Assembly (NCBI GenBank): GCA_011800155.1
Contig: CM022378.1
Span: 1,364,001-1,428,000, forward strand
Reading direction: 5' to 3'
From: Flammulina velutipes
Taxonomy: Eukaryota; Basidiomycota; Agaricomycetes; Agaricales; Physalacriaceae
DNA length: 64,000 bases
This document shows positions 6,729 to 64,000 of the stretch, piece after piece; position 1 is the stretch's first letter, and the number at the start of each line of letters is the position of its first letter. The notes under the pieces were generated by a model that worked only from the letters and a program-made list of their open reading frames with translations, did no database searches and had not been told where the DNA came from. Position numbers and translations under genes: made by a program.

Positions 6729-6870
6729 CACTGGCAGTACTAGATGGCACATCTTCCTAGCTGTAGCGGCATTAAATGGTTAAAATTTCCCGGGCTGTAG
6801 CCCTAGAGCAAGAAGGACAATTTCCCCGGGCTATAGCCACGGAAGATGTTACATTTTCCAGTCACGGCCA
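6729..6870 (+). repeat. Subterminal repeats of KDZ1 element, left end
   Basis: After the terminal CACTGGCAGTA come several imperfect copies of a motif near AATTTCC(C)NGGCTGTAGCC: TTCCTAGCTGTAGC (about 6753), AATTTCCCGGGCTGTAGCC (about 6784) and AATTTCCCCGGGCTATAGCC (about 6820), then a weaker one near 6857. The same motif clusters at both ends of the set-2 element. Likely transposase-binding sites by position; that role is inferred. Confidence 0.65.
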
Positions 6871-7050
6871 TTTTCGTCCCGGGTTTACCGGTGTGCCGCT
6901 GCTCAACATCAATGGCATGTCCAATGCCGTGCCTCCCGTCCTCAAAAGCAGCTTAAGAACTAGAGAATTAAATTACGATAACTTAAATAATTGATTAAGA
7001 AAATTAAATAATCTATTAGCAAAGTCCTAAAGCCCCTTGCGCCACCAGGC

Positions 7051-10000
7051 TCAGTCATCCTCGCCACGTTTCTTGCGTTTCCCTGAGACCCCGCATGGCT
7101 CTGGAGAGAAGAGCTCCGTGAAACGATGCAGCAGCCGCTCCCGAATCGCCGCCTGACGTCGCGCGTACGCACGCATGCCTTCACCCGTGTGCTTTGACAT
7201 TTGTACCCCAGCTTCCCGTGCTCTCCACTCCTTCGCCTCATATTGAAGGGATTCCAACACACGACGCATTTCCTCCTCCAAAAGAATCACCTCCTCCTTC
7301 CAACATTCCTTTCGCGCAAAGGACTTCGACCATTCTACTCGAACAGCTATGCCACGCATCAGTCACTGCCGGATATCAGTATATTAAGTACTTACAATCA
7401 TGCAAAAATTGTTCATCCTCCACGTCGGGAGCACCTTGCGCGGTCCATATCCAACTCATCTTCTGTCGACTGGACCCCGCCACCCAGGCCCCGTCAGGCG
7501 TCTCTTCCCCAGCCCCCTCCTGCTCGTTATCATCCACCCGCATCATTGTCGTCTGGATACGGCGACGACTGGAGTGTTGCGTCAACTTGGCCAGTCGACG
7601 CGCAGCCTGCCCGTCATGATCAAACACAAATTTGGTCTGAATGTCGCTATCAGTCAGGGCGCGAAAGGGCGCGACATCGTCCTCCAAGCTGGCCAGGGCA
7701 GTGTACGCCGTGCGGTACTTCTCCTTCGTGGCATTGATCTTGTCGCCAAGGTCGTCTAGAAGGGTCCGAGCGCGAGTGGTCTTTCGTTGACCGGTGAAAT
7801 TCTTGTTTTTGAATCGAATTAGATGGCTTTTGGTGTGGAGGCGGAGGCGAAGCGCGTTCAGATTTTGGGAGCATTGAAGCTTGCGTAATGCTGCCTCTGT
7901 CGTGAAGAGCGAGCCTCGATACGCAAGGCGCGATGCCTTCGGAATGTCTGACGGGAGCCACAAGCACATGTCCTCCGGTTCAACATGATGCTTCGCCGTC
8001 TTCGAGACTACTCCAGCCGTCGGTCGCGAGGATCCGTCGTTTTCGAGAGTGATGACACCTGGCATGAACAGCTGCTGGAGTTTGCGAAACTGGCGATGTT
8101 TTTTCCAGAACGCTGTACGCATGTCCTTGACCTTCGAGGCACCACCCCATCCCATTTTTCCCTTTGCCTTCAGGACGCCATGAATCTTCAATCTGAATGG
8201 TGTATTAGCGCCTTGTACATAGTAGCCGAGAAATCAAAACTCACTGCACCTGCTGCAGTTGTAGCGCTAGTCGTAGGAAGACGATGATATTCATTTTTTT
8301 CGCCGACTCGTTGTTGCCCATTCTGGCGTCTTCGTCTCGCTCCTCGTGTTCCAGATCGGCTTTGATCTCCTTCTCCGTCAGCTCGTCTGAAAGCATCAAA
8401 GTCAGTGAAATCCCGAGCCTCCAAACATTATCAAACTGACCCTTCTTCCAAAGAGATAGGTAGGGGTTCTCCACCGTCTTGTTCTTAAGCAGGACCTTCT
8501 CCTGTGCGTGCCAGGCTTTGATCTTCTTCGTCCATTCTGCAAGTACAGTCGGTTCGACCGTCGCGCTCGCACTGGCATGATTTTCCACTTGTGCTGCTTG
8601 TTCGTCTCTTGCGACCTGCAAGCGCTTTGGCAGAAGATGGCCTAACATTGCTCTGTCAATGAACACTTTTGAGAGACGGGACCCAGAAAACGTACCCATT
8701 CGAAGATTCATCATGTAGTTTTGATTGTCGAAATGATCCTCCAAGGACGCATGCCGGTTGTTCATCTGCATCTCGCGTGTAGCGTACGCTCGCGGGTTGG
8801 TGGTACTCCATACTCGTTCCACCCCCTCGCCATCAACCATCCCAGCGCCTGTCTTGTATCGCAATGACTCACACATGGCGCAATCGTCGTTATGCACGCC
8901 GCCGTGCCAAACAGGAAGTGACACTTCAATGTCTGGTGCATCTTCCCTCGCAGGCACGAAGATCGAAGGCATGCCCTTCTTGCGCTCAAGGAGGTGGACC
9001 TTCCACTGGCACCCTACGTCGTAGGACGCCATAATCTTCAGGATATCTTCCGTATAGGTCGACGCCCAAAAAACGTAATCCATGCTCGAGTATCTAAAAT
9101 AGAACTTATCAGTCGTTTGAGTGAAGGAGGGGAATACAGAATGCGTACCGTTCACCTTTGAGGAGGTCCACTAGACCCAATGGGCGTACCACTTCGTGTC
9201 GCGTGCAAATACAGCCACCTATCCCGGTCGCGCGTAGCCCTTTCGAAAAGCGACTATCCTTCTGCATCAAGGCTGCAAACGCGATACAAGTACTAACCTA
9301 CGCAAAACGTCAATATAAGTATGCCATTGATGAGGGCCGACTCACATCTTCCTCGTTGACGTTTTTTTTCACATGAGCCTCATATCCGTCGACTCCTCCC
9401 CACGGCGCAAAGCAGCCCAGACCGTCTCCTAGGATAGTGTATGCCTTCTTCGAGCTCTTCTTCCGCAACTTGTTTTCCAGGCGAAAACACGCGTCCATGC
9501 CGACGTACAAGTTGTATTTAAACCTATGACACGCCATCAATACACGTACATCATATGACAAGCTCCGACACTTACTGCAGGTTATCCTCAATATTCTTCT
9601 TGAAGTCGACAGGCAGGTTGATGCCAGGGCGCGGACATGCCCAACATTTCACGGCTGCGGAACCCCAAGCCGCTGACGCAACACCGTGAGGAAGGTGCCC
9701 AATGCCTGCCCGTCGCATGCGGGACATGTAGTTCCATTGAGTTGTTGACCGCCCAAAATTTTTGTATCGATCAGGTAACCATTCCACACCAAGCGGGTCC
9801 GTTAGACGTTCCAACGAGGTAACGAAATCCCGAACGTTTGCGTTGGCCACAACGTTCATCGTGCGAAAGTACTTGAGGCATTCGAAGGTGGAGAATGTTT
9901 GAGGTGCGGCGAAAGAGGCGGGGTACCAGCCAGTGCGCATCGCCTGTTGCCAAGGATTAGCAGAGACTGATGCACTGCAGCCACAGAATGCGGCTGAGAC

Positions 10001-11330
10001 TCGATGGATGCCGTTTATGTGGAGTACAGATACGGTCTTGAGTTGTGTGGGGAGCACACATGGATAGCCATCATGCCCGAGCTGGAAGGATAGGCCCAGC
10101 TTCCGCAGGCTTGTCTTGCGCCAGAAGTGGCTCTGGTAATCCCATTCCTAATGCGAGGTTGAGTCTTCTAAGGGAAAATTGCAGAGGGGAATCATACCGA
10201 GATAGAATGCAGAGGCGAAAGAGCATGGCGCTCTAAGCAGCACTCTCTACACTCCACAAAGACACCACACGTCGTGCATCGGTACAGAGGCTGCTGAGGG
10301 AATGCATCAACCTCCGGAAGACGATCTGAATTGACAATAAAATGAGTAAGTGGAGCTCGAGCTGAAGACCCAGCCAGCGTACCATTAGGCGAGTCCCTGG
10401 GAGAGTCCGTGTGGGACGCTTCTTGTCGATGAGAAGGATGTGACTCTGCCTCTTCGGGGCCTTCCTGATTCTTCCCTTCGCCGCATGTTCGGCAGCGCGC
10501 GGATGTTGGTAGCGCTTCCAGATAGTATGTCTCTTCCAGAATGGTATCTGCCAGAGAGGTGAAAATCGCCATAGGATCATCCTACCCGTTATCAGTAACC
10601 TGAAATGCGAGTAAAATATTATGGTAAGACACACCGAGCTAGCATATGTTTTCCGCTTCCCTGCGCCGTCCGTCACATCGTCCTGCTCGTCCTCGCTGTC
10701 CACCGGGTCACCATTCGCATCCAGTGTGTCCTCTGGTCGAACAGTATCCTCGACAAACTCCCACTCCTCCTCGCTCCCGTATTCGACGGAGTCGTCCGAC
10801 ACGAATGCATTACCCGAATCGGGCACGACAGATGATCCAACCTCTCCCAGTTTCCTTCTCTGTAAAGGACGATGTACAGGACGAACAACAGAACGCGACT
10901 CTGCCGTGACGCTTTGACGAGCGCCGTCGGCTGAGATCTCAAACATACGATCCGTTGAGTGCTTTCCGACAGAGATTGATCCTGCTGGCATCACATCGAC
11001 CGCACTCTTGCGTGGACGCCCTCGACGGCGCTCCCATGGCTGGCTGGCCTGAGCAGCAGGGACGACATTAGGATTGGGTGGCAAAGTGTAGACTGCAGGC
11101 ATAGGGGGGGCGGGGCCCCTTGTCTATATGCATTGTCAGAGTAAGACAGGTGGAATGAAGAAGTCAAATACCTGGGGGTGATTGCTGGAACCGCCCGCCG
11201 TGCGAGCAGGGCGAGGTACGCCAAAGTTCACCTCCTCATATTCACTTCGCGCAAGAAATTCCTCCCTGGGTCGATATCGCAAGTCCCAAGACCGTGTCGG
11301 TGGGTAGTCTGGCGGTGGGGTAGAGCCCAT
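7051..11330 (-). CDS. KDZ-superfamily transposase KDZ1
   Basis: Multi-exon gene, start at 11330 (MGSTPPPDYPPTRSW). Order on the minus strand: N-terminal WDLRYRPREEF motif; AT-hook-like RRGRPRKSAVD (about 11030); acidic linker; cysteine-cluster region (CRTCGEG then YRCTTCGVFVECRECCLERH, about 10510-10210), the KDZ-associated CxC type; core with FCGCS, WYPASF, NVRDFVTSLERLTDPLG and CWACPRPGINLP (10000-9600); VGMDACFRLENK; YDVGCQWKVH (about 9015); LPVWHGGVHNDDCAMCE; DGEGVERVWS (about 8820). Coiled C-terminal exons end RKKRGEDD. Every exon I joined stays open, so the copy may be intact. KDZ proteins are RNase H-fold transposases expanded in basidiomycetes. KDZ1 is a close paralogue of KDZ2. Confidence 0.88.
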
Positions 11331-11782: not shown

Positions 11783-12236
11783 CTAACTACTCTCCTTTTT
11801 GCCGAACCATTTTTCCCGCCGCGTTGCATTCACGATTTGCTGGGAAGATGTCAGTGCACAAGACTCCCGGCGGGCAATGTCAAGACGTACCCTTCCCCAT
11901 ATGTACTGTTCGAATGAGTCACTTCCCCCAGCAGTGTTGCTAGCAGCTGGGCTATTCGGGAAGGCCACGCAGAATCTTGTCCAAACGGCGCGAAAGAATT
12001 TCTGTTTCTCCACGGGGGTGGCGTCGTCGGGCGCCTTGTAGTTTTCTTGGTGGTGCTCGCGGAGCCACTTCCTCTGGTCTTCCGTAAACGTCAAAGTCCC
12101 GACTACGACATTCATCAATATATTGCGGTCACCTCGAGTCTTGCAACGCACCACGATCCACGCTGACGGCCGCGAATTTTTTTTTGGCGGGTCTCTTCTT
12201 CAATCCCACTCTGGCTTTTGCTTGGGTGGAGGACAT
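11783..12236 (-). CDS. KDZ-set gene B1, small protein of unknown function
   Basis: Three exons (12236-12152, 12102-11891, 11839-11783), introns of 49 and 51 nt. The product starts with a lysine/arginine-rich segment (KKRPAKKKF) and continues with FTEDQRKWLREHHQENYK, a FFRAVWTRFCVAFP block, FEQYIWGR and QIVNATRREKWF. The paralogue B2 (54258-54768) has the same exon structure and matching blocks (FTAEQKLWLLDHSAENFK, FYRRVWNDFNMAFP, FECYIFGR, KIVNATRHELWF). No known family recognised. It lies upstream of KDZ1 on the same strand. The W/F-rich pattern suggests a small helical domain, possibly DNA-binding given the basic N-terminus (inference). Confidence 0.75.
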
Positions 12237-12326: not shown

Positions 12327-14068
12327 TGATGTGCAGTGTAGAAGAACGCCACAAAAACACACACAAAACACACACTAACAAGTCAATGGTGCGATGCGGG
12401 AAAGTCCGATGTTTATAGCGGGATTTCACGTTATAGTAGCAATCGTTCGTTTTGTAATAGGTGGTATGGGACGGGTTCTTGTTCTTTGTATCTTTTGTTT
12501 TATGGGACTGTTTCTCTCTATCTTCTGCTCAAAATGCTTATACTAGTTCGACGGGGTAACAGGGATCTGATCTTTAAACTGAGTTCTAGTTTGCCACTAA
12601 GTCACAGGCCGATTGGGATGTGTGTAAAGAGACCTAATGAGGCTCTTCCCAGGCCAACAACCTTCAACCACACTAGGGAGCGGGAGCTCTGGTATCTATC
12701 TGTATAATCAGGACTCTCCAACAACTAGTCGGGGCCTGAATAGATAGCCTAGCACAGTCTGAACCACACTTGTATGGGACTTGGGACTCCAACCAGAGTT
12801 GGTAGGTTCTTTAGATGGAATTTCCCGCGGAAACTCGGATCGTTTGAATCGCAAAGGACTTGGCTTCAACTTCTTTAATATGGGAAGTAGCTCCAATGAG
12901 TTCTTAGATCTTTGGTTCTGTTTCTTATTTCCACCTATCTAAACAGTGGTTCTTTTTCTAACTAAATCTTAGAGTCTATTCCTCCAGTATATACGGCTTG
13001 TGGGCTGCGGATACGGGGGGCGTAAGCTACTGTAAATAGTACAAACGAGCTAGCTTTATAGTGTTTTCTATATACGTCTGAATAAGGATATAATACCGAG
13101 TCCGCTGGTTCGGGGGAATATTCCGATAGGATGTACGGAATATCCCTCTAATGGTGCCCTTGGCATTACTGCCTATTCGTTCTGGCTTCTATTTGCTTTG
13201 AATCCAACCAATGGTGGCGCCGTAACTGAGTTTGCAGTGGCGCCAGGTTGTTCCTTGTGCTTGGAAGCTCCACTATTTCATCGTTTTCCACTATTATTAG
13301 CGGCCGAGTCCTGTCTAGCAGGAACTCTTAGCCTTTGTTCGTATTCTTATTTCATACTACGAGTCCGAGTAGTACCGACTAGGTTTGGTATACTGGACGC
13401 GCAAGTATGTTCTTAGTATCGTGTTCGGACTTTTCCGGTAGTACTCCGGAAAAGCTATCGTTGTATCTTTACGAGTTGTCGATAGTACTCGTATTGTAGG
13501 TCCTTGTAACAATTTACTTGTGGATCCCGAGAATCGATCAGGAACAGTCCACCGGAGTAAGTCGATCGGTGATCGAGCAGTATCTTTTGAAAGCCTAAAA
13601 GGTTACCCTGACTCCTGAGTCTCCTATGTAATATCCCGACGTCTGAGTAGTACGAACATTTGGTTTGCTAGTCCAGCAAGCGTTTAACTGCTTACTGGCG
13701 TTGCGTCTCTTTATGTAGAGTTTCCTTGTGTAAGGGTAACTCGCCGAATTCCGTTAAGTATTTCGGAGTTTCGCGCATTCAAGTGTATTTGATCACGATG
13801 TCTCCATCGGGGTACTTTTGATGATGATATTCAAGATCGTCATGTGTGGTTTGGCTATACCTACACGCCCTTCAGCGTGTGGCGCTTTTCCGACGAATCT
13901 TAGGAGTTTTCCGGTCGTACCACGGAAACTCCTTACACTGTATCGTATACGCGTTTCGGTCTGTAACTAGAGGTTCTTGTACTCATAGGTTCGTTCTATC
14001 ACTAAGAATGCTTCTTAGAATCACAAATTTTGGGGTCTTTCGTACTTGCATTAATACAATGCGCATCA
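12327..14068 (-). repeat. 3' LTR (left) of gypsy element
   Basis: 1,742 bp, TGATG...CATCA. It matches 28148-29889 at an offset of 15,821 with two noticed differences. Because the element is on the minus strand, this copy lies after the internal genes. Small frames in both LTRs (for example 12486-12707 and 28307-28528) are identical non-coding shadows. It contains several short TTCCG...CGGAA hairpins (near 13108-13142, 13437-13461 and 13907-13935). Confidence 0.93.
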
Positions 14069-14294
14069 TCTCCCATAGACTTATTTTGATGGTGTCCGCA
14101 CCATCCTGGTTCCCCTATCGTTGGATCCCTCAATATTCTTCCTGGACTCGGCTCTTGGAAAGGCCAATAGGTAGGAGGACAATTCCGCTTATTTCAACGG
14201 AATTCTCCCGGCTTTGCACGTTCCATTGCCAATATTTCTTTACTATAAAAGCAGGCTGAAAACTGTGGCGCTCTCCGTTTTATCCTTCGTTACT

Positions 14295-15925
14295 ATGCCT
14301 CCCAAGATCCCTCAATGGCACTCCATTGGTTCTTCAATCTCTGCGGAAGCCCCCATTGCTACGCTGGAGCTCGTCCAGTATCGCCTTGCTACTGCCCCGT
14401 TGATCAACGACTTCTTGGTTAATTACTCGCTCCCGGATTCGACCAACTCCCTTATTGTCGACGCCATCGAACAGCTCACTGCCCCAGTGATGGCCTTGTT
14501 GCGTACGGTGTCTGCCAATCCGACGCCACGGGATATTCCGATTGTCGTTGTGGACAAGTTCTTTAGCAAGTTGCTGGTATGTCTTTCCGCTTTCTTTCTA
14601 TGTCTCCTACTAAGATCTTTATTTATCTTCTAGCTCATCAATCAATCTCTGAAGGGAACCACCGCCGCAGAGGCTTCCTTCGAGATTTTCTCCTTCTTCT
14701 GGAATCTGCGCAACGTCCTTGGGGTTTATCTCTTGGAGTTAGGCGTTAGCCCAACTCATCACCGTATCAACCTTGCGGATATGTTCACTCCAGTTCTTAA
14801 TACTGTGGGTCGAGGCAAGGCTTATATCGCACCGCCTTATCCCGAGAGCCACCCCCTTCATGCTGCTTCGCGTGTAGTTCCTAAGGTCAAGGCGCCAGCT
14901 CCAGCTCCTGAGCCTACACCTGCACCCAAGCTTACTGCTAAAGCCATGCGGGCTGCCGCGAAAAAGGTATGGACTTTTCCGCTTATTCTTCGGTCTTTCT
15001 AACTTGTATCACTTTCTTTAGGCTGGTAAGACGGTTAAGTCTGCCGCCATTATCGACGATGCCCTCGAGGCCGTTGGAGATACTACCAACGCCACTCTTA
15101 CTGAGGATATCGGTATGTTCTTTCGTGACCGGCACTTTCCGCTTTACTAAACGGACTGTCTGGTTTCTTCAGAAATGGACGATGGTGGGTCTGAATCTGA
15201 TCTTTCTGACGATGAAGATGTGAGCTTAGTTGCTTACTTCTAGGTGTCTCAAGATTGACTCAACCCCTGCAGGACTTGACCATTATTGATGGAGATGGAG
15301 TGCGCCGCAAGGACTTCCCCCCTTCTCCGGTTCGTACTTGTCTTCTTATTCTAAAGCTTGAACTAAAGACATTTCTCCTTTATTCATAGCCTGCTGAAGT
15401 CGAAGGCCCCCGTGTGGTAACTTATCTTCCCTACTCGATGATCCCAGGTATGCTGATAACTTCTCGCGCATACCAGAAGGCCATGGAGGTTATAGGAAGT
15501 ACGGTCACTTTCGTGGAACCTGCTCCTTTGCTTACTAAACGCAAAGCTACGGAAGACGGGTCGCCTCGTCCTCTTAAGAGCCTTAAGGTTGACTCCGTTC
15601 GTATCGACAACACCTTTGTCGAACAATTCATTGGAGGTGCGTTTAGTTCTTCTTATCTTAATCTTGTACTTATCGCATTTTTCCGTGTTTCTTAGCGGGC
15701 GCTACCGCTCAGAGTTACGGAAGCTCTGTTGCTCGAGTTATCAAACAAGTCAACCGACTCCTCGCTGCCGACGAGTTGACTGAACTCGGACCTGGTCTGA
15801 TTTCGACTGAGGTGGCGCATCGCAATGAGTTGATTAGACTCTTGAATCGTATTCACGGCGACGTCCAGACGTTCAACCGTACCAAGGACTTGTATATCGC
15901 TACTGTCAAGTCTATGCTCGAATAG
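14295..15925 (+). CDS. Gypsy-borne antisense gene Y, unknown function
   Basis: Seven exons (14295-14576, 14634-14966, 15022-15112, 15173-15219, 15273-15329, 15390-15636, 15696-15925) join in frame to 428 residues. All introns are 53-60 nt with GT and YAG ends. The N-terminal part is helical (MPPKIPQWHSIGSS, then VQYRLATAPLINDFLVNYSL). A Pro/Ala-rich linker (PAPAPEPTPAPK), an acidic middle and a C-terminal helix (AHRNELIRLLNRIHGDV) follow. No family recognised. It lies inside the LTRs but on the strand opposite to gag-pol, so its introns would not be removed from genomic RNA during retrotransposition. Confidence 0.72.
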
Positions 15926-16367
15926 ATATTTCCCTGTTACAACTAGGTAGTTGCCCATCCCTTCTTTCCGGGTGATACTACTGTTTACCTATTGTGTTTC
16001 CGGGGCTCTTTATCTTTATTTTTATCTTTCTGATACTGTAGCCATTGCTTATTGACTTCCAATATAACTGTCCCCTAAACTTCGTGTGATTTGAACTTCA
16101 AGCTAGACCCCGAAGACACTTGTGCGCCACTTCCGTGATTCCTAGCGGAATTTCGCATGAAGTCTTCGCCGGTCTCCTTTCTTGTTCTTAGGGGTTTACA
16201 ATTTTTGTTTTCCGTATTGGCAATCTTCTATAGCCTATACGTTCGTTATTTTCTTCGCCTTGACGAATACCCGACCCATTAGCCAGTCGATCATACACCT
16301 CCTATTAGATTTGTACATCGTTTATAAGACTGAGCTTTTGTAATGTCTCGGTCTTCGTCTGTCTCAG
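15926..16367. other. Spacer between genes Y and Z inside the gypsy element
   Basis: No frame worth calling. T-rich sequence, presumably the 3' end of Y and the promoter of Z. Contains a CTTCCGTGATTCCTAGCGGAAT hairpin-type motif near 16130 (first 20 bases shown as CTTCCGTGATTCCTAGCGGA). Confidence 0.4.
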
Positions 16368-17534
16368 ATGCCTTCTCCTATCGCTTTGATTCCTCTATGG
16401 GCCAACTTCAAAATCGCCATGATTCCGGGTTTGGACAAGCGATTTTCCGAGGAGGCCTTGGACTTTTTGCAGGCTGAGACTGGTCTCGCCGTTGCTATAT
16501 CGTTATATCGCACTGCTCAAGGCTTTCCTATCGTGGCCACGCCACTCAATAGCTTGGATCTTACCGCGCGGTATACCGATGCGGCTGCGGACTTGCACTT
16601 AGGTCCTGCTCGTCAGATAGACGCTCCTACATTGAGGTTCACCCTAGGCGTAATGGTACGTCTCGGATTTTTCCTTACATTTTGCGGGTCTAACGGTCTT
16701 GATAGCAACACGCTTCTAGTTTGTGGCATTGCGAACATCCCGACTTTCGTACCGGGCAAGCCTACAACTTAGCTTCGTTGTATATCGTCTGTCTTCGATT
16801 GGTGTCCAACTTCTTTCATGGACGCACGGGAAACTGTACCCTCGACGGTCTTTCCTTCGAAGGATGGCTTTCCAAAGTATATCGCCAACCCCATATGCAC
16901 TTTACGGAGTTGTACTTGGATGCTAGCGCCGATTTCATCGTGAGTTCTTTAACCTATACGCTTTTTCCGTACTAAATCTCGGGATTTTCCATAGACCAGC
17001 GTAATGTTGGGCTATCATAGGGGAGCGCCTGACTCTTTGGGTGGGATCTTTGCCCATCCTGAGGTCTTGGATGCTATCCCTGTCCCTCTATCTCGTATGG
17101 ATGCCAGCGACATTCAATTGGTCGCTTGGTGGCCTCGTTATCTTTCCGCTAACAACATTCAGCCCGAGTTTGATACTCGTCCTATCATGTATGAACGGGT
17201 CGTTACCAACGGTTATTCGCCTTTACACGATTTTCCAGCTGGGTTGGTTGACGCTAGTGACCTCAGACTTGGTCCCCACGCCGAACGCTTCACTGAGTTC
17301 GTACCAGAGCCCCATTGTGTTGCTCAACGGCGATCTAGCTCAACGCCTGAACTTGTTCCAATCAGTTCTCCAGTACCAGTGGTCAGATCTTTCGTAAGTC
17401 TTCTGTTCGACGTCTAGTGTATAATTCTAACACCTTTCTTCTGATAGACCCACTTCAATACGCTAGGACAGACTATGTGTACCCACTGTCCCACTAGTCA
17501 TCCTGCCGTCGAATGTACTCCTCCGACCCAGTAG
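16368..17534 (+). CDS. Gypsy-borne antisense gene Z, protein with C-terminal zinc-knuckle-like motif
   Basis: Four exons (16368-16655, 16706-16939, 16995-17393, 17448-17534), all phase 0, give 335 residues. The start MPSPIALIPLWANFKIAMIP is followed by a globular-looking segment (LRLVSNFFHGRTGN, VYRQPHMHFTELYLDASADF). The last exon encodes MCTHCPTSHPAVECTPP, a CX2CX3HX4C arrangement close to the CX2CX4HX4C zinc knuckle of retroelement nucleocapsid proteins. An antisense gag-like or RNA-binding protein is possible but speculative. Same strand as Y, about 440 bp downstream. Confidence 0.68.
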
Positions 17535-49877: not shown

Positions 49878-49994
49878 GTAGGTCTATGCCGCGAAAATCT
49901 TTCACATTGCCTGAGCATCAGCAGGTGTAGCGTATGCCCAGATAAGTAGCGTGATTTGTGAATTTGAATATTACTGTTTCTGTAACCTTCCCCC

Positions 49995-50934: not shown

Positions 50935-50957
50935 TGTTAAGATATCCCCTCTGTAAT

Positions 50958-53377: not shown

Positions 53378-54053
53378 ATGTCTGAATCGAGCACTGGCAG
53401 ACCACCTAGGATGTTCGACATCGACGAGTACCGTACACTTGGTACGTCGCCATGGCGCTCTGCCCAACTGTAAGCATTTAGTACTCGTTGGTCGCGCTAG
53501 CTAATACTCTGCATGCCAGCTTCATGAGCGACGAACTGCAATACATTCACCGCTTCTATCCCGAGCCTGATATTGCTGAATCACTCAATGAACGTCTGGA
53601 GAAGGTCAACGCATTATTCTTGCTCGATAACTTGGAGTCGGCAGGTGTGCTGTCGCTTCGCGATCTCACCTATTGGGCATGCCTCGTCACCCAGCCAGAC
53701 TACCTCCTCATTACCCAGGAGGCTATTGGCTTGGACAGCGGTGTCGAGTTGGAACCAAACTTCCAAACAAATGTCGCGGCGTGGACCGAGCTGATGTATG
53801 TTCTGCGCCTTGAGGAGAGCGAGCGTTGCTGGCCGGGGACGAAAGGTATGTATCAATTAGATCAGTTTCGCTCACTCCGACTTATTTCATGCCAGTCTTT
53901 TCGCAGCAGACTTTGATTCGACAGAAGTATGCGTCGATCGCGCAGGAGCTTTATCAACGACTGGAGGATGATTACTCACAGTGGGGAGCGCTGTCGCCCA
54001 GAGTTCGGCGCCGATGTATTTCCCGACGGCTGCAGCTGAATCGTTGGGGGTAG
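53378..54053 (+). CDS. KDZ-set gene A2, small protein of unknown function
   Basis: Three exons (53378-53469, 53520-53845, 53896-54053) give 191 residues. Start MSESSTGRPPRMFDIDEYRT; core FMSDELQYIHRFYPEPDIAE, NERLEKVNALFLLDNLESAG, SLRDLTYWACLVTQPDYLLI; last exon YQRLEDDYSQWGALSPRVRR. A1 has the same exon plan and strong similarity; A3 is distant. Both introns are GT-AG here. Upstream of B2 and KDZ2 on the same strand. Confidence 0.8.
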
Positions 54054-54257
54054 ATAGGACATATTGTATTCATTGGGTTCCATCTCCAACATTTCGAGTC
54101 ACCACCTGTCGCGTAGAATCTGTCCGGAGGTAAATAATCCTCCATCCCGTGTATTTCCTAAGCCTACTACATATCCCAAAATTTTTACAAGGCACGAGAC
54201 GTCGGCAGAATGAACGCGGGGATTGCCTACCCTTCAATCTTGCTTTCCCCTACCATC

Positions 54258-54768
54258 ATGCCTCCCATTCGCCCCGAAAAACAGAGGAAAGAAACAGTTT
54301 CCACGGTGAAGCAGGCCGTCAGCCGCGCTCCAACAAAGGCGAAGGCTCTCCCAAAGCGTCGTTTCGCAGGTGTCGTCGTCAATCGGGGTACGTCTTGCCG
54401 TATACTATAAGTAATGATATTAATGCAAGTGACTGTAGTTCCTGAATTCCATTTTACCGCAGAGCAGAAGCTGTGGCTCCTGGACCACAGCGCAGAGAAC
54501 TTCAAGCCTCCCGTCAACGGAGACTACATCGAGACTCAACATTTCTACCGACGTGTTTGGAATGATTTTAACATGGCATTTCCCGATAACGGTTTCGACG
54601 ATGGCTTGACATGGGGTGTCCAGAAAGGGGATTTATTTGAGTGCTACATTTTCGGAAGAGTGCGTTGATTGACCATCCGATTGTGTGGCGCCTTACTAAT
54701 TCTTCCGGCAGAAAATTGTCAATGCGACCAGGCATGAATTGTGGTTTAGAGCTAGGGAGGATAGCTAG
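54258..54768 (+). CDS. KDZ-set gene B2, small protein of unknown function
   Basis: Exons 54258-54387, 54439-54659 and 54712-54768 give 135 residues. Basic N-terminus (RAPTKAKALPKRRF), then FHFTAEQKLWLLDHSAENFK, FYRRVWNDFNMAFPDNG, FECYIFGR, KIVNATRHELWF. Close to B1 in exon structure and sequence. Located 204 bp after A2 and 445 bp before KDZ2. No family recognised. Confidence 0.77.
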
Positions 54769-54809
54769 AGATAGAAAAATGTCGCGCTAGTAGAATAGAA
54801 TGAATTGGG

Positions 54810-54853
54810 GCCCGTGCGCCACTCTATTGCACGCAGCAGAGTGGCGCACGGGC
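54810..54853 (+). terminator. Hairpin 42 nt past the B2 stop
   Basis: A perfect 16-bp stem (GCCCGTGCGCCACTCT at 54810-54825 and its complement at 54838-54853) around a 12-nt loop. Same offset from the stop as the hairpin after B1. Confidence 0.55.
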
Positions 54854-55213
54854 AGGGTTGTCGACATTGTTTGAGATGGTGCCGTGAAATACTGATGGAA
54901 AAAATCATTGTAAATTATGGTTGCGTTTCACCCGTATGGGTCAGGGCGCATCCGGTATCTGGGCGAACATTCGTGGATGGCATAATTTCATTTTCGCAAA
55001 CGATGAGGGTGTGAGATAATATACACGTCGAAGCATGTCCTCTTACCTCTACCACAGCACGCTCTTTGACATCTACAGCTAGGAAATAGATTCGTCCGCC
55101 ACATCCAACGGCGCCGCACAAAGGTAACGTTGTCACATCGTGACCAATTCCATTAACGCTTACCATGATGTCCAGCTCGCCTGCCCCATCCGCCACTATC
55201 CCTCGACTACAAC

Positions 55214-55863
55214 ATGCCCTCAGACGCACAAGACACCCGCCCTAGGTCGACTTGGAGTATGCGATATCGCCCAGCCGAAGAGCTTCAGGCTCGTCGAGAG
55301 TACGAACACGTCAATTTTGGTGTGCCGCCTCCGACACATGCTGGCGATGGAACAAGTGAACCCTCACGGACTTCAGTGAGTCTACTTGACATTCCGCCTT
55401 TACTCTCTAACATGAAATAAAGATGCAAGCTCCTCTGCCAATGGCCGGGGTGTATACTTTGCCCCCTTCCACATCATCTCTCCCGGCAGTGGAAACAGGT
55501 CGGGCGTGGGCGCGTAGGCGTGGGCGTCCGCGCAATACGATGGTCGATGTTATGCCAGCAGGTTCCAGCATGGTGGGGACGCAGTCGACAGATCGTTCTT
55601 TCGAAATCTCAGCGGATGGAACACGCCAACGGATTACTGCCGAATCTCGCAACGTGGTTCATCCAGTTCTACGTCCTGCTCAGAGAAGGAAGACGGATAA
55701 TGGGCAACAGGTGTCAGGGCACGTTCAATCCTTCGAAGATGGCACCTCCTTCGTATCGGAGGAAGCGAGAGACGGGGGTGAGGAGAATGATGAGGATGAG
55801 GACGAGTGGGATTATGTTGAGGATGGAGTCAGCCCCGAGAACAGCTTGGATGCTAACGGCGAC
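55214..55863 (+). pseudogene. KDZ2 transposase, 5' part, interrupted by insertion
   Basis: Exon 1 is 55214-55375 (MPSDAQDTRPRSTWSMRYRP, EYEHVNFGVPPP). Exon 2 starts at 55423 with MQAPLPMAGVYTLPP, the AT-hook-like RRRGRPRNTMVD and an acidic stretch to SLDANGD. At 55864 the 2.8 kb insertion begins and the frame soon stops. The same exon continues at 58672 with PVDSEDELG, as in KDZ1 (GDPVDSEDEQD). Confidence 0.85.
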
Positions 55864-58664
55864 CACCCTATGACCTACTCATAACTAGTTAAACCCCTAT
55901 AGTGACGGGGCCAAACAACTAGTTGCTGACTGTCACTACGGGCTAATAGGCTGGCTGGTAGAAATGGCTGGTCGTCGGGCTGGGGCGGGCTGGCATGGGG
56001 CGGGATGGGTACCATATATGGATAGGAATTGATGGGAGCATATAGGGATTGATGGGGAGGGGGAGCAGGAGCAGGGGATGGGGAAATGTGGCCACACAGG
56101 AATCCGGACCTAGGGATTGATGGGTACTGATGTCATTAATTGACCAGGGGGATAGGGGATAGGGATAGGAATTGTGGCACCAGGAAAATCCGGACCTAGG
56201 GTTTGATGGGGGCAGGGGATGGGGGATGGGGGCAGGGAAAATGTGGCCACAGGAAAATCCGGACCTAGGGATTGATGGGAACTGATGGGATTGATGGGGG
56301 AGGGGATGGGGGATGGGGGCAGGGGGATTGGGGGCAGGGGACAATTGTGGCACCAGGATATATACTGGGCTATTGCCAGGGTATGAGGAGGGTATGGGAG
56401 GGATGATTATAGGTTGAAAAATAAAATTCTTTCTAACTATCAGAAACATGAATGGGGATGTGGCAGCTACTGAAACCAATAATAAAACGATGTGTGGCGC
56501 ATTTTTAATCGAGGAGCACATACCTCGGATCGACCTGGGGCTGCTCTAGATGTCTTCCCCTTGAAAAATGAATGTGTGCAGCACAAAGAACCATGTAAAA
56601 ACACGAAGATTTGGCTGAGAAACAGGCAGAACATTATTGAAAATCCATCAAAAAGCACCAAAAAGGGAGCAGCACTTTGCCCTCGTTTGGGGGTGACCTG
56701 GAACCACTTGTAGGTCGTCCAGACACCTTTGGGGCATTGTATATGTCACTCAGTTAGGTCCCCAGGTCAACAGAACCCTTGGATATGATCAAAATGCCAA
56801 AAACCCGGACCATACAGCTTTGGGCCACACTATCAACTTGCCCTGACCTGGAGACACCTTATATTCGAAGATATATGTATATAATGCTCTAATCATGAGT
56901 TAGATGAAGTCTGGAGTGTGAAAAATGCGGTCAAAACCTTGGATATATCCCAAATAATGTCCCCCAAGAAAGCACACATACTATCAACTTCCTCTGACCT
57001 CTAGGTCGTCCCAATGTGTTCTATTATCATTATATATGATGTATTAGCACCCCAGAGGTTCCCCCAGTGTGTCAAAATGCGAATATAAATGGTACAATAA
57101 TGTATATCCCCTCCTTCTACACCAAGAATCACCCCAACTATCACATATCTGAGTGGTGGACTATTGATTTTAACATCATACAATGTGATTTTAGGCTCCC
57201 AGAATATGTCCCAGGTTGAACACCCTTCAATATAGAGCATGGACATTTGAGAATTAGTACAAAGATCATATCCTCACCATGTACCAAAGGGATGTATCTT
57301 CGAGGTCTACCTATGACCTGGGCCCCAAGATATCATCTATATGATGTTAAATGACTATTAGAACAGTCTTAAAGATGTAGATATGCGAACCAATGGGTGT
57401 ACTTGAGGAAGAAGGGTGAATAAGGGTTCACCTATTATCATGAATATTCGTATTTTGACATACTGGGGACACCTCTGGGATGCTAATACATCATATATAA
57501 TGATAATAGAACACATTGGGACGACCTAGAGGTCAGAGGAAGTTGATAGTATGTGTGCTTTCTTGGGGGACATTATTTGGGGTATATCCAAGGTTTTGAC
57601 CGCATTTTTCACACTCCAGACTTCATCTAACTCATGATTAGAGCATTATATACATATATCTTCGAATATAAGGTGTCCCCAGGTCAGGGCAAGTTGATAG
57701 TGTGGCCCAAAGCTGTATGGTCCGGGTTTTTGGCATTTTGATCATATCCAAGGGTTCTGTTGACCTGGGGACCTAACTGAGTGACATATACAATGCCCCA
57801 AAGGTGTCTGGACGACCTACAAGTGGTTCCAGGTCACCCCCAAACGAGGGCAAAGTGCTGCTCCCTTTTTGGTGCTTTTTGAGGGATTTTCAATAATGTT
57901 CTGCCTGTTTCTCAGCCAAATCTTCGTGTTTTTACATGGTTCTTTGTGCTGCACACATTCATTTTTCAAGGGGAAGACATCTAGAGCAGCCCCAGGTCGA
58001 TCCGAGGTATGTGCTCCTCGATTAAAAATGCGCCACACATCGTTTTATTATTGGTTTCAGTAGCTGCCACATCCCCATTCATGTTTCTGATAGTTAGAAA
58101 GAATTTTATTTTTCAACCTATAATCATCCCTCCCATACCCTCCTCATACCCTGGCAATAGCCCAGTATATATCCTGGTGCCACAATTGTCCCCTGCCCCC
58201 AATCCCCCTGCCCCCATCCCCCATCCCCTCCCCCATCAATCCCATCAGTTCCCATCAATCCCTAGGTCCGGATTTTCCTGTGGCCACATTTTCCCTGCCC
58301 CCATCCCCATCCCCTGCCCCCATCAAACCCTAGGTCCGGATTTTCCTGGTGCCACAATTCCTATCCCTATCCCCATCCCCCTGGTCAATTAATGACATCA
58401 GTACCCATCAATCCCTAGGTCCGGATTCCTGTGTGGCCACATTTCCCCATCCCCTGCTCCTGCTCCCCCTCCCCATCAATCCCTATATGCTCCCATCAAT
58501 TCCTATCCATATATGGTACCCATCCCGCCCCATGCCAGCCCGCCCCAGCCCGACGACCAGCCATTTCTACCAGCCAGCCTATTAGCCCGTAGTGACAGTC
58601 AGCAACTAGTTGTTTGGCCCCGTCACTATAGGGGTTTAACTAGTTATAAGTAGGTCATAGGGTG
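55864..58664. mobile_element. 2.8-kb element with 1.22-kb inverted arms, inserted in KDZ2
   Basis: The two arms (55864-57086 and 57444-58664) are near-identical reverse complements. They surround a 357-bp unique spacer (57087-57443). Termini start CACCCTATGACCTAC. A 7-bp duplication CGGCGAC lies at 55857-55863 and 58665-58671; removing the element and one copy restores the KDZ2 frame. No coding capacity is supported: the small frames occur twice because of the arms. Arms have a G/C-tract region (56000-56345, mirrored at 58180-58530) with repeated AATCCGGACCTAGGG. Probably a non-autonomous long-TIR or foldback-type DNA element; superfamily not assignable. Confidence 0.92.
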
Positions 58665-58671
58665 CGGCGAC

Positions 58672-61600
58672 CCTGTCGACAGTGAGGATGAGCTGGGAGA
58701 GGGGGCGGAGAAGACGAGAAAGCGGAAGGCGTACGCTAGCTCAGTATGTCGTCTCTCTTCTAATTTCATGTTCATGTAACTGATCTTCCTCAAGGACGAT
58801 CCAATGGCCATCTTTTTGTCTCTAGCTGACACCGTGTTGGAGGAAACATTCTACCTGGAAGCGCTACCACCGAACTCATGTTGCCGGACCTGCGAAGCAC
58901 AGGGGAATGACAACGCAGGGAAAGGTGTCCCCGATGTCCACGATTCTCCAAGCTCTATCCTTACGCCTATGGCGTCCGACCACGATACACTAAAGGACGT
59001 TCAAGGTGTCCTCAACCCCGACGTCCATGATTCTCCAAGCTCTATCCCTACGCCTATGGCGTCAGACACCTGTTCACCCCACGATGCACCAAATATCGCT
59101 CCTCCAACGCCCGAGCCATTGTATAGGTGCATAACATGTGGAGTTTTTGTTGAATGTCGGGAATGTTGCCTCGAGCGTCATGCTCTGGCTCCTCTGCATA
59201 CGATTTTGGTAAGTTCTTTCTTTTCATTGCATTGGGGCGGAAAATCTAATGTCGTCGCCAGGAATGGGATTACACCAAGAGTTTTTGGCGTGATACCAGC
59301 CTGCGTGCTCTCGGACTGTCATACCAACTTGGGCACAACGGGTACCCATGCATCCTACCTACCAGCCTCAAGACCGTCACTGTGCTCCATGTCAACGGCA
59401 TTCATCGCATCTCGGCAGCGTTCTGTGGCTGCAGCTCATCCGTCTCCACCAATCATTGGCAACAAGCGATGCGCTCTGGCTGGTATCCTGCCTCGTTTGC
59501 CACGCCTCAAACCTTCACCACGTTTGAGTGCCTCAAATACTTCCGAACGATGAACGTAGTCGCCAACGCCAACGTTCGCGACTTTGTTACCGTTCTCGAA
59601 CGCCTCACCGATCCACTGGGAGTTGAATGGGTTCCCGACCGCTACAAAAACTTTGGCCTATCGACGACTCAATGGAATCACATGTCGCGCATGCGACGCG
59701 CGGGTATTGGTCACCTACCTGGCGGAGTAGGCGCAGCCACAATGGGATCAGCTGCTGTTAAGTGCTGGGCATGCCCGCGCCCCGGCATCAACCTTCCCGA
59801 TGATTTTAAGAATATCGAGGACAATCTAAGGTGCATTTCGTTTGTTGATATTGTATGTTTGTGTTGATGATCAATCCAGATTCAAATACAATCTCTACGT
59901 AGGGATGGATGCCTGCTTTCGACTGGAGAACAAGTTACGCAAGAAAAGTGCGCGGAAGGCGTACACCATTTTAGGTGATGGCCTCGGTTGTTTTGCCCCG
60001 TGGGGAGGTGTCGACGGATACGAAGCTCACATTAAGAAGCACGTGAGTGAAGAGGATGTAAGTTATCACTTCGATGAAGGTTTCACGTTGATTTGACGAT
60101 GCCCGCAGGTCAGTACTTGCATCGCCTTTGCCGCTTTGATGCAAAAGGACACTCGTTTCTCTAAGGGTCTGCGCGCGACAGGTATTGGTGGCTGCATCTG
60201 CACCCGCCACGAGATCGTGCGTCCATTGGGTCTTGTTGACCTCCTGAAAGGCGAACGGTACGTTTCTCTGGCGATGTAATTCACTTTTGCTCATACCCCG
60301 GATTAGGTATTCAAGCATGGACTACATTTTCTGGGCCTCAACATATACTGAGGACCTGCTCAAGATCATGGCGTCATACGATGTCGGTTGCCAATGGAAG
60401 GTTCACCTGTACGAACGCAAGTCGGGTATGCCAACAATATTTGTTCCAGCAAGGGAGGATGCCCCCGAGATTGAGGTGTCTCTCCCCGTCTGGCATGGAG
60501 GTGTCCATAACGATGAATGCGCTATGTGTGAATCGTTGCGTTACAAGAGCGGGGCGGGTATGGTAGATGGCGAGGCCGTCGAGCGAGTGTGGAGCACTGC
60601 AAACCAGCGAGCATATGCGACACGAGAAATGCAAATGAACAACCGACACGCTTCGCTTGAGGACCATTTCGACAATCAGAACTATCTGATGAACTTGCGA
60701 ATGGGTACGTTTCCATTATACTCTGAACGATGACAATTTTATTAACTTTTTTCCTAGGCTACCTTCTTCCAAGACGTTTGCAGGTGGCCAGAGAAGAGCA
60801 AGCAGCCCAAATTGAGAGCCACGCGGCAGCAAGCGCGACGGTTGAACCGGCCGTCCTGGCTGATTGGACGAAGAAAATCAAGATCTGGCATGAGCAGGAG
60901 AAAATACTGCTGAAGGATAAGACGGCGGAAAACCCTTATCTATCTGTATGGCGGAAAGGTATGTCATTCTCTGATCTTTGCGTTGACTTGGGAACTGATT
61001 AGCTTTGGCTCTCATAGATGAGGTTACAGAGAAGAAAATAAAGGCTGACTTGGAGCGTGAGGAAAGGGAGGAAGAAAAGAGGATGGGGGATGACGAGACG
61101 ACAAAGAAGATGAATGTCGTGGTGTTCGTACGACTGGCGCTGCAGTTGCAGCAGGTCCAGTAAGTCATTCTCTAATGGGCGAGACCGGCCAGAAATTGAA
61201 ACATCTATTCAGATTGAAGATCCACGCAGTTCTGAAAGCGAAGGGAAAGGTCGGATGGGGTGGCGCTAATAAAGTGAAGGACATGCGCACAGCTTTTTGG
61301 AAGAAGTACCGACGCTTCCGAAAGCTGCAAGGGATGTTCATGCCCGGCGTTTTGGTCCAGTCGAGCGACACACTGTTACGAGGGGACACTGGGGTGCAGG
61401 GTGTGGATGTTGCGTCGGGCAGGAGCAAGCGACCCACGGAGCCGGAGGACATGCCTTTGTGGCTTCCATCCGACATTCCCAAGGTGGCACGCCAGGCGTA
61501 CCGGTCATCGCTCTTCACGACAGAAGCGGCCTTGCGTAAACTCCAGTGTTCTGAGAATCTCAATGCCCTCCGACTCCGTCTGCATACGAAGAGTCATCTC

Positions 61601-62373
61601 ATTCGTTTCAAGAACAAAAATTTCACTGGACAGAAGAAGACGACCCGAGCGCGAACACTTCTAGACGACATTGGTGACAAGATCAACGCTACGAAGGAGA
61701 AATATCGCACCGCCTACAATGCGCTGGCCCACTTGGAGGACAATACAGCACCTTTCCGCCCCCTCGCTGAGAGCGATGTTCAGACGAAATTCGTCTTTGA
61801 TCACGACGGGCAGGCGGCGAGACGCTTGGCTAAATTAACGCAACATTCGAGTCGTCGACGTATTCAGACGACTCTGGTGCGCGTAGACGATAACGAGCGG
61901 GAGGGAAACGAAGAAGAGGCTGCAGATGGTGCGTGGGTTGGTGGATCAAGCCGACAGAAAATGAGCTGGATTTGGACGGCGCAGGGGGCGCCTGACGTCC
62001 AGAACGAGCAGTTTCTACATGACTGTAAGTTCTTATTGTGGTTCATGCTTATCTTCAGGTACTGACATGTCGCATAGCTGTGCGGGTGGAATGGTCAAAG
62101 TCCTTTGCACGGAAGGAGCGATGGGAGGAGGAGGTGATCCTCCTCGAGGAAGAGATGCGTCGTGTGGTGGAAACCCTCCGATACGAGGCAAAAGTCTGGG
62201 GGGAACGAGAGGTGTCGACGAGCATGACGAGACACACTGGCGAAGGTATGCGCGCGTATGCACGCCGGCAGATGGAGATTCGGGAGCGTTTATTAGTGCG
62301 ATTCACCGAGCTCTTCTCACCTACAGCAGGCGCGTTGATTGGGAAACGTAAAAAACGGAGCAAGGGTGACTGA
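58672..62373 (+). pseudogene. KDZ2 transposase, 3' part
   Basis: Continues from SLDANGD with PVDSEDELGEGAEK, then MAIFLSLADTVLEETFYLEA, the cysteine cluster (CCRTCEAQ ... YRCITCGVFVECRECCLERH), FCGCSSS, NVRDFVTVLERLTDPLG, CWACPRPGINLP, VGMDACFRLENK, YDVGCQWKVH (about 60388), LPVWHGGVHNDECAMCE, MVDGEAVERVWS (about 60565), and coiled C-terminal exons to KKRSKGD. KDZ1 has GEG where KDZ2 has GEA in the conserved block. Inside the cysteine region are two copies of VHDSPSSI.TPMASD (58937-59070) not present in KDZ1. All later exons are open, so the 2.8 kb insertion may be the only lesion. Confidence 0.87.
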
Positions 62374-62721
62374 GATGTGTGGCGTGACTCGCGTGGGATT
62401 ATATTGGTGGCGCTTGTACTACTTCTTTAATTATTTTCATTTAGGACATATTAGGACATTTATTTTATTGTTATTTATGAAATACGTGGCGTCTACACTC
62501 AATCTGAGCTGTTGTGGCGTTCTCAGATATATGCCGAGGGTTCGGCACACGTGGCAGCGCGGTTATACCGGTGCGAGAATAGCCGAGACGGGAAATTGTG
62601 GTTTCTTCCCTGGCTACAGCCATAGGAAGTTGTCTCTGTTGCCCTCTGGCTACAGCCAGGGAAATTTAAACCATTTTGACTAGCTACAGCTAGGAAATTG
62701 TACAATTCCTTACTGCTAGTG
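62374..62721 (-). repeat. KDZ2 3' flank with subterminal repeats and right terminus of set-2 element
   Basis: 62380-62520 carries four GTGGCG motifs. From 62590 come GGGAAATTGTGG, CCCTGGCTACAGCC (about 62610), CTGGCTACAGCCAGGGAAAT (about 62648), TAGCTACAGCTAGGAAATT (about 62683) and the terminal TTACTGCTAGTG ending at 62721. Reverse complement aligns with the KDZ1 left end at 6729-6840. Confidence 0.68.
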
Positions 62722-62878
62722 GTGCGATCTCAAGGTCCTCGTCGTCGGAATCGACTGGGTTAGTATCCTGATTCTGAGAGGAGGGGCTGTGCTCTGCCAG
62801 CCCATCCTCGTTGAAGGTGATCTGTGCTGGCGATGAGCGCGTGCAAAAATGAGAGGAGGCTCAACATACAGTAGACAT
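62722..62878 (-). pseudogene. R6: 5' half of a split R gene
   Basis: A 9-nt exon (62878-62870, MST), an intron to 62822, and exon 62821-62722 encoding ITFNEDGLAEHSPSSQNQDT ... SDDEDLEI. R4 begins the same way (MSS|TTLLEDGQAQLSPSS ... SDDELEVVI). It ends exactly at the set-2 terminus. R3 at 45057 resumes at the matching codon (LEIV). Confidence 0.7.
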
Positions 62879-63051
62879 TTGGGGGAAAGTAAGGAAGAGG
62901 TCGATGAACTTGTTCGGATGTGACGAACCCTTTAAATGATTGCTTTCTCAATCGGGAGGCCGTTGTGCTGAATCGGGAGGTGGTCACAACGAGATCTTGG
63001 TTTTACCGAGATTTTCCGGTGCATCCAAATTGTCCTCTTGCCCGTCTCGAC
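62879..63051. promoter_or_regulatory. 173-bp bidirectional promoter between R6 and C3
   Basis: Divergent starts 173 bp apart, as in the other two C/R pairs. Still linked to an intact 5' end of C3 although its R partner is split. Confidence 0.55.
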
Positions 63052-64000
63052 ATGGAATCCCCTTTGCATCTTCTGGCTGACGCTACACAGGTTCCAATCG
63101 AAAAAGACGTTCCACTCGCCCCGAGTGTGCCAGTCAACAAAGTGACCGGTGGGCGGCAGTATGTGAAGAAAAAAATGGAGGACAAGAAGTCCAACAAGGG
63201 GTGGGCTGACGGCTTGCGCGCTGACGTGCTGGGGAAATATATGCCCCGGTTCAAGGCAGCATGGTTTGGGGCTAGTCGAGAGACTGAGGTAGAAGAGGTG
63301 AGTTTGTAGAGCTGGCGCCACATACTATGTGTACTCACGAATATCACAGGTTATGCGAGACTGCACACAGGAATACCTTTTCCATTTCCCAGGAGATGTG
63401 GTAGACGACGCCGAAAGGAACGCGGAGCCTACGGTCTTGAAGGCCTACGACGCGAAGGCGGACTACCCATTGACGCGCCTCGCTCCCGATAAGGAAAAGG
63501 ACCGTCAAATTCGCATCAAAGCGAAAAAGAAGGTCCGTATATTTCGAGCGCCGTCAGAGTGAAGGTTGACATTCCTTTATCTTTGGTCAGCAAATCCGCG
63601 AATGGTTTCGATACAGAGTGACGCGACTTACCAGTGCCTCTTCTCGCACAGATCAGTTGTCGTTGGTCGGTGAAAAACTCGTCGGCCTGAAAAAGCCTCG
63701 CAAACAGCTTCAAGGGTACCAGCAATGGCAGGTCGAGAACCGCGAGTCGCTGGGAAAAGAGGTCGCGCTCCGATGGCAGAGGAAGGAGGCTGCTGGCGAG
63801 GACCTAACAAAGGTGGATCTGCTGGTGTTTCGCCAAGCGGTCGCTCGAGAGATGTTCAACGATTTGGACGAGGCGGCTCAGAAGGAGTGTGTCAAGAGGG
63901 CTGCTCTGTTTGCAGAACAGGAGCGGTTGGCCTTTGAACAGGCGAGAAAAGAGATCCCGACGCGCACGGCCGAGACGTTGCAATCGTGAGTGGCGATATT
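63052..64000 (+). CDS. KDZ-set gene C3, 5' part (runs off the window)
   Basis: Exons 63052-63297, 63350-63532 and 63591-63985, followed by a donor GTGAGT at 63986. Encodes MESPLHLLADATQVPIEKDV, SNKGWADGLRADVLGKYMPR, MRDCTQEYLFHFPGD, QIREWFRYRVTR, GYQQWQVENR and the HMG-like FRQAVAREMFNDLDEAAQKE, ending TAETLQS. Matches the first three exons of C2 in boundaries and phase. Assigned to set 1 because of its orientation and closeness to C2. Confidence 0.8.

Follow-up and report, generated by a model that had tools for sequence, protein, structure and literature searches.

A 64,000 bp window of the Flammulina velutipes genome (contig CM022378.1, here C13; C13:1364001-1428000) contains three KDZ transposase genes accompanied by paralogous sets of companion genes, and delimitation of their boundaries reveals that each gene set constitutes a single transposon whose two ends match, a unit of approximately 14 kb carrying about six genes beside KDZ. 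The three elements, hereafter E1, E2 and E3, are nested in one another. Near-identical copies of such units, bounded by 7-bp target-site duplications at unrelated genomic sites, demonstrate that the cargo-bearing KDZ unit has moved recently as a whole. Genes were modelled with a home-made gene finder, direct frame reading and self-comparison of the window, and all linkage and phylogenetic results refer to this one genome (38.1 Mb, 23 contigs). Positions without a contig name are those of the window.

Layout of the three nested elements

The full gene set is found in E2 (45055-62724, plus strand; 17,670 bp), which lies between two copies of the target-site duplication CGATCTC (45048-45054 and 62725-62731), with its C-side end on the left and its KDZ-side end on the right. 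Its genes read C2(-) R4(+) R5(+) D2(-) A2(+) B2(+) KDZ2(+), at 46190-49006, 49172-49879, 49995-50934, 50958-51700, 53378-54054, 54239-54769 and 55184-62373, respectively, and the transposase gene is broken by a 2.8-kb insertion at about 55864-58664. This insertion has long inverted arms of 886 nt (98%) and 294 nt (99%), and a sister copy of E1 on contig C19 has sequence 93-95% similar to it around its own C gene (C19 offsets 2829-5280).

Element E3 (30937-44622, minus strand) has matching ends (CACCAGTAGTTG... and ...CACTATGGCTC) and no target-site duplication. Read on the reverse strand, its order is C1 (40873-43691, plus), R2 (40018-40704, minus), R1 (39003-39942, minus), D1 (38316-38980, plus; exons set by hand), A3 (37068-37794, minus), a RING-finger gene in the B place (35565-36371, minus; exons joined by hand) and KDZ3 (31201-35245, minus). 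Element E1, also on the minus strand, spans 6726-66875, beyond the window edge, from a KDZ-side end CACCACTGGCAGTA at 6726 to a C-side end ...GGGCTC at 66875, with TAGTGTC on each flank (6719-6725 and, outside the window, 66876-66882). Its reverse-strand order is C3 (63052-64000, plus, extending beyond the window as far as about 65737), R6 and R3 (62725-62878 and 44631-45047, both minus), and then A1 (30010-30612, right limit approximate), B1 (11786-12121) and KDZ1 (7051-11309), all three on the minus strand. E2, E3 and a long terminal repeat (LTR) retroelement (12327-29888, minus), whose 1.74-kb repeats differ at 3 of 1744 bases, all sit inside E1.

Self-comparison, gene models and direct reading agree with a first-pass annotation of this window as to the presence, place, order and strand of the three KDZ genes and their paralogous sets, and the spacings that it listed are exact, both for the divergent C/R gaps (165, 168 and 173 bp) and for the convergent R/D gaps (23 and 22 bp). 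Its claim that each transposase belongs to the same seven-gene set holds in full for E2, but E1 is without D and the second R, and E3 has the RING gene where B would stand. The sets are not separate neighbours lying side by side, a layout that had to be discarded once the nesting was recognized. R6 and R3, listed as members of the E1 set, do belong to it, but as two halves of one R gene into which E2 has inserted, leaving the first exon (R6) to the right of E2 and the second exon with an adjoining part (R3) to its left.

The sister copy of E1 on C19, which is 99.6-99.8% identical over the alignable stretches of E1, preserves the empty site of E2 intact and is without the 17.6-kb LTR retroelement that separates B1 from A1 in E1. 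It also retains about 4 kb (C19 offsets 6972-11003) that are missing from E1, which explains why E1 is without D and the second R. The missing segment is flush with the right (C-side) end of the duplication-less E3, and its loss looks like a transposition-linked flanking deletion.

Mobility of the unit and linkage of its cargo to KDZ

Perfect 7-bp target-site duplications were identified in 12 of the 13 elements of this genome with both ends defined, the exception being E3. Two copies of the unit, X (C13:420478-434692) and Y (C3:195462-209671), share 99.7% identity on different contigs and terminate exactly at the 7-bp duplications CAGTTCA and TCGTGAG. In a second subfamily, represented by C9a and C9b on contig C9, the two copies share 99.96% identity across 13,475 bp and are flanked by TCGAACC and ATGTGGG, while a divergent 11.6-kb family on the same contig (one copy at C9:1713524-1725122) shows the duplications GTTGTTT and CGAGGTC. 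Four further elements, on C19, C1, C5 and C13, were located by their terminal motifs, and the 7-bp duplication is perfect in each of them. Pairs of copies this similar, each with its own 7-bp duplication and at a site unrelated to that of its partner, demonstrate recent transposition of the whole unit.

Among the copies read from end to end, those not enlarged by a big insertion measure 11.6-14.2 kb (X, Y, C9a, C9b, E3 and the divergent C9 pair). The ends are fixed in the window subfamily, E3 and C9a/C9b, with 5'-CACC... on the KDZ side and ...GGCTC-3' on the C side, and in the window subfamily they are imperfect inverted repeats of each other over a short stretch (9 of 14 bases match in X). 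Exact matches to the end motifs fall mostly at known elements (8 of 9 for the C end, 8 of 10 for the KDZ end); when mismatches are allowed, genome totals do not exceed those of a reversed-pattern control (25 vs. 42 and 34 vs. 35). An exact C-end motif at C8:90403-90419 lies outside any assigned cargo element of the window subfamily and is possibly a solo end or a short non-autonomous copy.

Genome-wide searches revealed that homologues of the cargo genes lie mostly beside KDZ genes in a fixed geometry. For C, we compared 69 loci found via the C-terminal domain of the protein (from 71 matches) with 85 KDZ loci (from 104 matches), the surplus matches being second pieces of the same loci. In 56 of the 69 C loci, a KDZ gene of opposite orientation lies 4-20 kb behind C (median 8.9 kb), where 1.2 are expected by random placement, and the other three geometries account for 6, 8 and 9 loci. 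Conversely, 52 of the 85 KDZ loci have a canonical C; E1's own KDZ is among the other 33, the remainder of which may be relics or too diverged.

The remaining cargo genes were searched with E2 proteins, or with PF01693 in the case of R, against 91 KDZ loci merged from the matches listed (166 KDZ matches in total), counting in the window's own sets. Matches were merged into 11 loci for A (from 19), 8 for B (from 10), 8 for D (from 16) and 22 for R (from 23). Among the KDZ matches listed, the nearest KDZ stands in the same strand relation at 2-10 kb for all 8 B loci, for 7 of 8 D loci, 9 of 11 A loci and 17 of at least 22 R loci. A1 of E1 falls outside the nine linked A loci because nesting brings another KDZ gene closer. 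The PF01693 counts are lower bounds, and R1 of E3 is not among them, probably owing to an intron within its domain.

Divergence of the cargo follows that of the transposase to a large extent. Match scores of KDZ and C to E2 covary (Spearman 0.66 over 48 collapsed pairs; 0.45 over the 41 that remain once the E2-like subfamily is removed), and pairwise identities of the two proteins over seven lineages correlate at 0.52. Phylogenetic trees for these seven lineages, in which KDZ of E1 is represented by an incomplete sequence (735 residues) and that of the next element on C13 was joined from separate predicted pieces, share three of four inner branches. The pair of C9g with the next C13 element and the E1/E2/X trio are both supported at 100/100 in the KDZ and C trees, the grouping of C9a with the trio at 100/99 (KDZ) and 84/93 (C), and E3 forms a long branch in both. 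Conflict between the trees is confined to the order inside E1/E2/X (86/88 vs. 84/84; bootstrap 84-86%). The proposal that the cargo has co-evolved with its transposase is thus supported for C by both trees and score correlation, the branching order within this trio being the one point of disagreement.

Comparison of exons among E1, E2 and X, using the C19 copy in place of E1 for D and R5 and with no X partner for B, yielded proportions of synonymous differences (pS) of 0.61-0.86, at or near saturation, and proportions of nonsynonymous differences (pN) of 0.13-0.37 for the cargo and 0.06-0.09 for the KDZ exon. In every cargo exon pair compared, pN is well under pS, a pattern which suggests that cargo and transposase have been retained for equally long. 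Together with linkage, shared ends, 7-bp duplications and near-identical whole copies, these data uphold the notion, advanced in the first-pass annotation, of one large multi-gene KDZ element. Of the two outcomes which that annotation named as contrary to it, cargo homologues usually unlinked to KDZ and gene trees at odds with the KDZ tree, neither emerged in this genome, the trees being those of C.

Two loci display cargo genes where no KDZ match was found. At C8:618951-631599, A, D and R (C8:618951-623623) cluster with a weak C match and no KDZ match, in a probable element relic, and R and C matches stand in element order at C13:1000948-1005817 with no KDZ match nearby. Among the other features of the region, 99-nt inverted repeats at window positions 288-3988 surround a transposase-like frame (440-1132; IS630/mariner-like by eye) and a predicted gene (2727-3839), and a pol gene closely similar to that of the LTR retroelement nested in E1 lies about 45 kb onward on the same contig (74885-81466 in extended window coordinates).

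Cargo proteins and subterminal palindromes

All three window KDZ genes score above cut-off for the PF18758 catalytic domain (6.5e-53 in copy X), and the KDZ core is preceded by a CxC2 cluster (PF18803, 2.6e-29 in copy X). The R proteins carry an RNase H1 N-terminal domain: R1 has two such domains (PF01693, 3.4e-21), R5 has one (2.9e-10), and R4 has a weak, RNase H1 N-terminal-like domain that falls below cut-off (0.037). Comparison of R5 with PDB sequences returned nothing credible (best E 0.12). D2 has a basic N-terminus, and A2 and B2 are without known domain. A search with A in the protein database returned three short proteins on contigs of 3-4 kb, with 59-64% identity over 55-58% of the query, indicating that related genes exist elsewhere.

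The C proteins combine a centre that is likely, although not settled, to be HMG-box-like (encoded at 48060-48455 on the minus strand in C2) with a conserved C-terminal domain. Neither the whole protein nor its C-terminal part matched any entry at E ≤0.001 in a protein database that seems poor in spliced fungal proteins and is hence uninformative on this point, and the sole Pfam match is to BUD22, below cut-off (0.0014) and over an acidic stretch. A minority possibility, to which we assign a modest chance, is that the unit is real but the centre of C is a mere helical bundle and C acts otherwise, for instance as a site-specific end binder or a structural protein. The weak Foldseek E-values are consistent with this alternative, as are the failure of four complete or partial C sequences to match any Pfam HMG model even at an E-value of 1, and the C-terminal domain, which is conserved in distant families and for which the AlphaFold2 model is too poor to be usable (pLDDT, the predicted local distance difference test, of 56).

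Homology of the weaker cargo pairs was judged by the number of shuffled sequences reaching the observed score. The first-pass annotation regarded C1, R2, D1 and A3 as diverged counterparts of the other sets, and this is clear for C1, as it is for KDZ3, and for R2 (0 of 500 shuffles against R4), and moderate for D1 (1 of 500 against both D2 and the D of X; 124 of 500, not significant, against the D of the C19 copy), but A3, assigned by position, resembles A2 only weakly (4 of 300). Neither A3 nor D1 appears among the matches listed when the genome was searched with A2 and D2. The RING gene of E3 (zf-C3HC4, 2.4e-6, above cut-off) has a counterpart by frame reading between D and A in the C19 sister of E1, and the same reading disclosed none in the D-A gap of E2 and X; a regular-expression scan for RING motifs found none in any element, which says nothing on absence, because introns split the RING.

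The C9 subfamily has clear C, R and KDZ genes (R of C9a: PF01693, 7.2e-14). Candidate A-like and B-like frames in C9a (offsets 6448-8177) were dropped after shuffle tests against A2 and B2 proved not significant; the frame in the B place runs on the opposite strand from B, and both are possibly other genes. The distant element next on C13 (C13:1448896-1459098) encodes KDZ, C and a D-like protein (0 of 300 shuffles against D2). These comparisons show that the wider core consists of C, together with R or D where these were sought, with A and B found mainly in the window's own subfamily.

Inspection of the termini revealed palindromes close to the KDZ end, their centres 38 and 72 bp from it (62640-62695 in E2), with a third near 105-108. 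Their letters vary by subfamily, being CTGGCTGTAGCCAG in E2, AGGGATCTATCCCT in C9a and GTGGTTATAACCAC in the divergent family, and their positions are constant. At a score of at least 5/7, the palindrome at +72 is present in five of six KDZ ends and that at +38 in three of six, with neither in E3. The score summed over both positions in four unlike subfamilies was reached by 0 of 2000 draws of interior DNA. A 34-bp step corresponds to about three helical turns and would place the palindromic sites on one DNA face.

At the C end, the pattern is less regular: the best palindrome places are 39 and 26, followed by 51 and 73, and single ends vary. E2 has only the palindrome at 26 among the four, and three additional C ends (two of them nearly identical) all have one at 39, one of the three also at 72. 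Under a stricter threshold, 11 palindromes were counted over 12 ends, six of which have none, giving 0.92 per 160 bp as opposed to 0.24 in element interiors.

Proposed mechanism, alternatives and known systems

We consider it highly probable that these elements are multi-gene KDZ transposons whose cargo is mostly machinery for their own transposition and survival rather than a collection of host passenger genes. In such a system, the KDZ protein (CxC2 plus KDZ core) would cut at the ends and join the unit to a 7-bp staggered target, with a sequence-specific element protein (KDZ itself, D or B) presumably binding the palindromes just inside the ends. Through its HMG-box-like domain, C could bend DNA and help pair ends 14 kb apart. 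Host HMGB proteins bend DNA in this way for RAG and Sleeping Beauty; here, the element may encode its own DNA-bending helper protein. R may bind nucleic acid, perhaps RNA:DNA hybrids, either while the element is expressed or to counter its silencing, and D, B and A would be further small element factors. A stronger version, in which a multi-protein element-encoded complex comprises an HMG-like C obligate across distant KDZ families and a dimeric factor reading palindromes about 34 bp apart, whose letters change by subfamily and whose positions do not, is a tentative proposal, held at lower odds because the C-end palindromes are less regular.

Trans-mobilisation by one or few intact copies, with most of the cargo a decaying passenger, appears unlikely. 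It would accommodate the 33 of 85 KDZ loci that have no canonical C and relic-like loci such as C8:618951-623623, in which A, D and R occur with no KDZ match, but it fits poorly with the low pN relative to pS across all cargo exon pairs compared and with the existence of whole recent copies. We regard as quite unlikely the capture of host cargo, whereby A, B, C, D and R would be ordinary fungal genes kept for host benefit or by chance, as in Starship elements. The small size of the proteins, mostly without known domains, the shifting position of the RING gene between subfamilies, the weak conservation of A between E3 and the rest, the C9a frames in the A and B places that are not significantly like A2 and B2, and the loci standing outside the canonical relation to KDZ (5 of 22 R loci among the matches listed and 13 of 69 C loci) could all be expected of captured genes, yet most copies lie beside KDZ in one geometry, C extends to KDZ families that are very distant, one of which also has a D-like gene (0 of 300 shuffles), and the trees of C and KDZ are mostly congruent. 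That segmental duplication or clustering by chance, rather than transposition of a unit, produced this nested, transposable-element-rich region can be dismissed in view of the exact common ends, the unrelated flanks, the clean empty site and the 7-bp duplications, which differ in sequence from site to site and flank 12 of 13 elements.

Mushrooms harbour KDZ transposons in large numbers, but the machinery of these elements is poorly understood. For a multi-gene transposon with its own machinery, the companion gene set with an HMG-like protein, the end palindromes at fixed spacing and the very young copies would constitute concrete parts for a first multi-gene transposition assay. A class of unannotated small fungal proteins would, moreover, be explained as transposon parts, which bears on gene counts and gene-family expansions.

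That fungal KDZ elements carry accessory genes has already been stated in general terms, citing Iyer 2014, in the accessible text of PMC12477816. In the literature searched, to which Iyer 2014, the likeliest source, does not belong, we found no description of the C-R-R-D-A-B set, and the accessible portions of PMC12730594, PMC12810828, PMC7641404, PMC4289320, PMC8290104, PMC12062965, PMC8226300 and PMC12477816 contain neither this set nor an HMG-like companion or phased palindromes. In Pleurotus, according to the sections available, all intact KDZ genes are preceded by CxC2 (PMC7641404).

The window elements resemble the TET/JBP-carrying Kyakuja of Agaricomycotina, as far as described in the portion of PMC12730594 consulted, in their KDZ-superfamily transposase, 7-bp duplications, possession of extra genes and agaricomycete hosts, and their duplications agree in length with those of the KDZ superfamily (7-8 bp) and of the Kyakuja lineage (7 bp). 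Kyakuja TET+ elements differ in having CA..TG ends, no terminal inverted repeats (TIRs) and a TET/JBP gene, as opposed to CACC..GGCTC ends with a short imperfect inverted repeat in the window subfamily, and the same text states that TET+ transposons encode no additional protein for further modification (PMC12730594). Assignment of the window element to Kyakuja was therefore rejected, its ends being unlike the published description. The first-pass annotation had seen no TET/JBP gene here, in agreement with a genome search with PF12851 that gave three matches, all below cut-off and none inside the elements examined; these lie at C1:2940553, C8:958790 and C6:2819659, the first two within about 15 kb of KDZ matches. 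The divergent family at C9:1713524-1725122, which has a C gene, CA..TG ends and 7-bp duplications, is nearer to the published Kyakuja description than are the window elements.

Cryptococcus KDZ1-3 are likewise KDZ elements (9-11 kb) with demonstrated movement and short target-site duplications, but have TIRs of 139-241 bp, duplications of 4-8 bp and CxC1 in place of CxC2, with the transposase gene alone described in the accessible part of the source (PMC12810828). The giant KDZ elements of Ectocarpus and Chlamydomonas exceed 10 kb, and many of the giant families contain nested insertions and carry additional genes; the available text describes for them neither a conserved order of seven genes nor an HMG-like companion nor palindromes in phase (PMC12477816). 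The Pleurotus Helitron capE shares with our elements the presence of a PF01693 gene on a fungal transposon, yet is a Helitron with captured genes, and KDZ is not mentioned in the passages available (PMC4289320). Starship giant transposons are similarly large, fungal and cargo-carrying, but in the accounts consulted they use a tyrosine recombinase, belong to Pezizomycotina and bear accessory cargo. The subterminal motifs of the window elements recall those of CACTA/En-Spm, in which repeated subterminal motifs are bound by a second element-encoded protein, although the transposase belongs to a different superfamily. The CMCT group, the wider group of CACTA/En-Spm, generates duplications of 2-5 bp, according to the part of PMC12730594 consulted. 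Set beside these systems, the novelty of the elements described here is limited to the gene set, the HMG-like companion and the phased palindromes.

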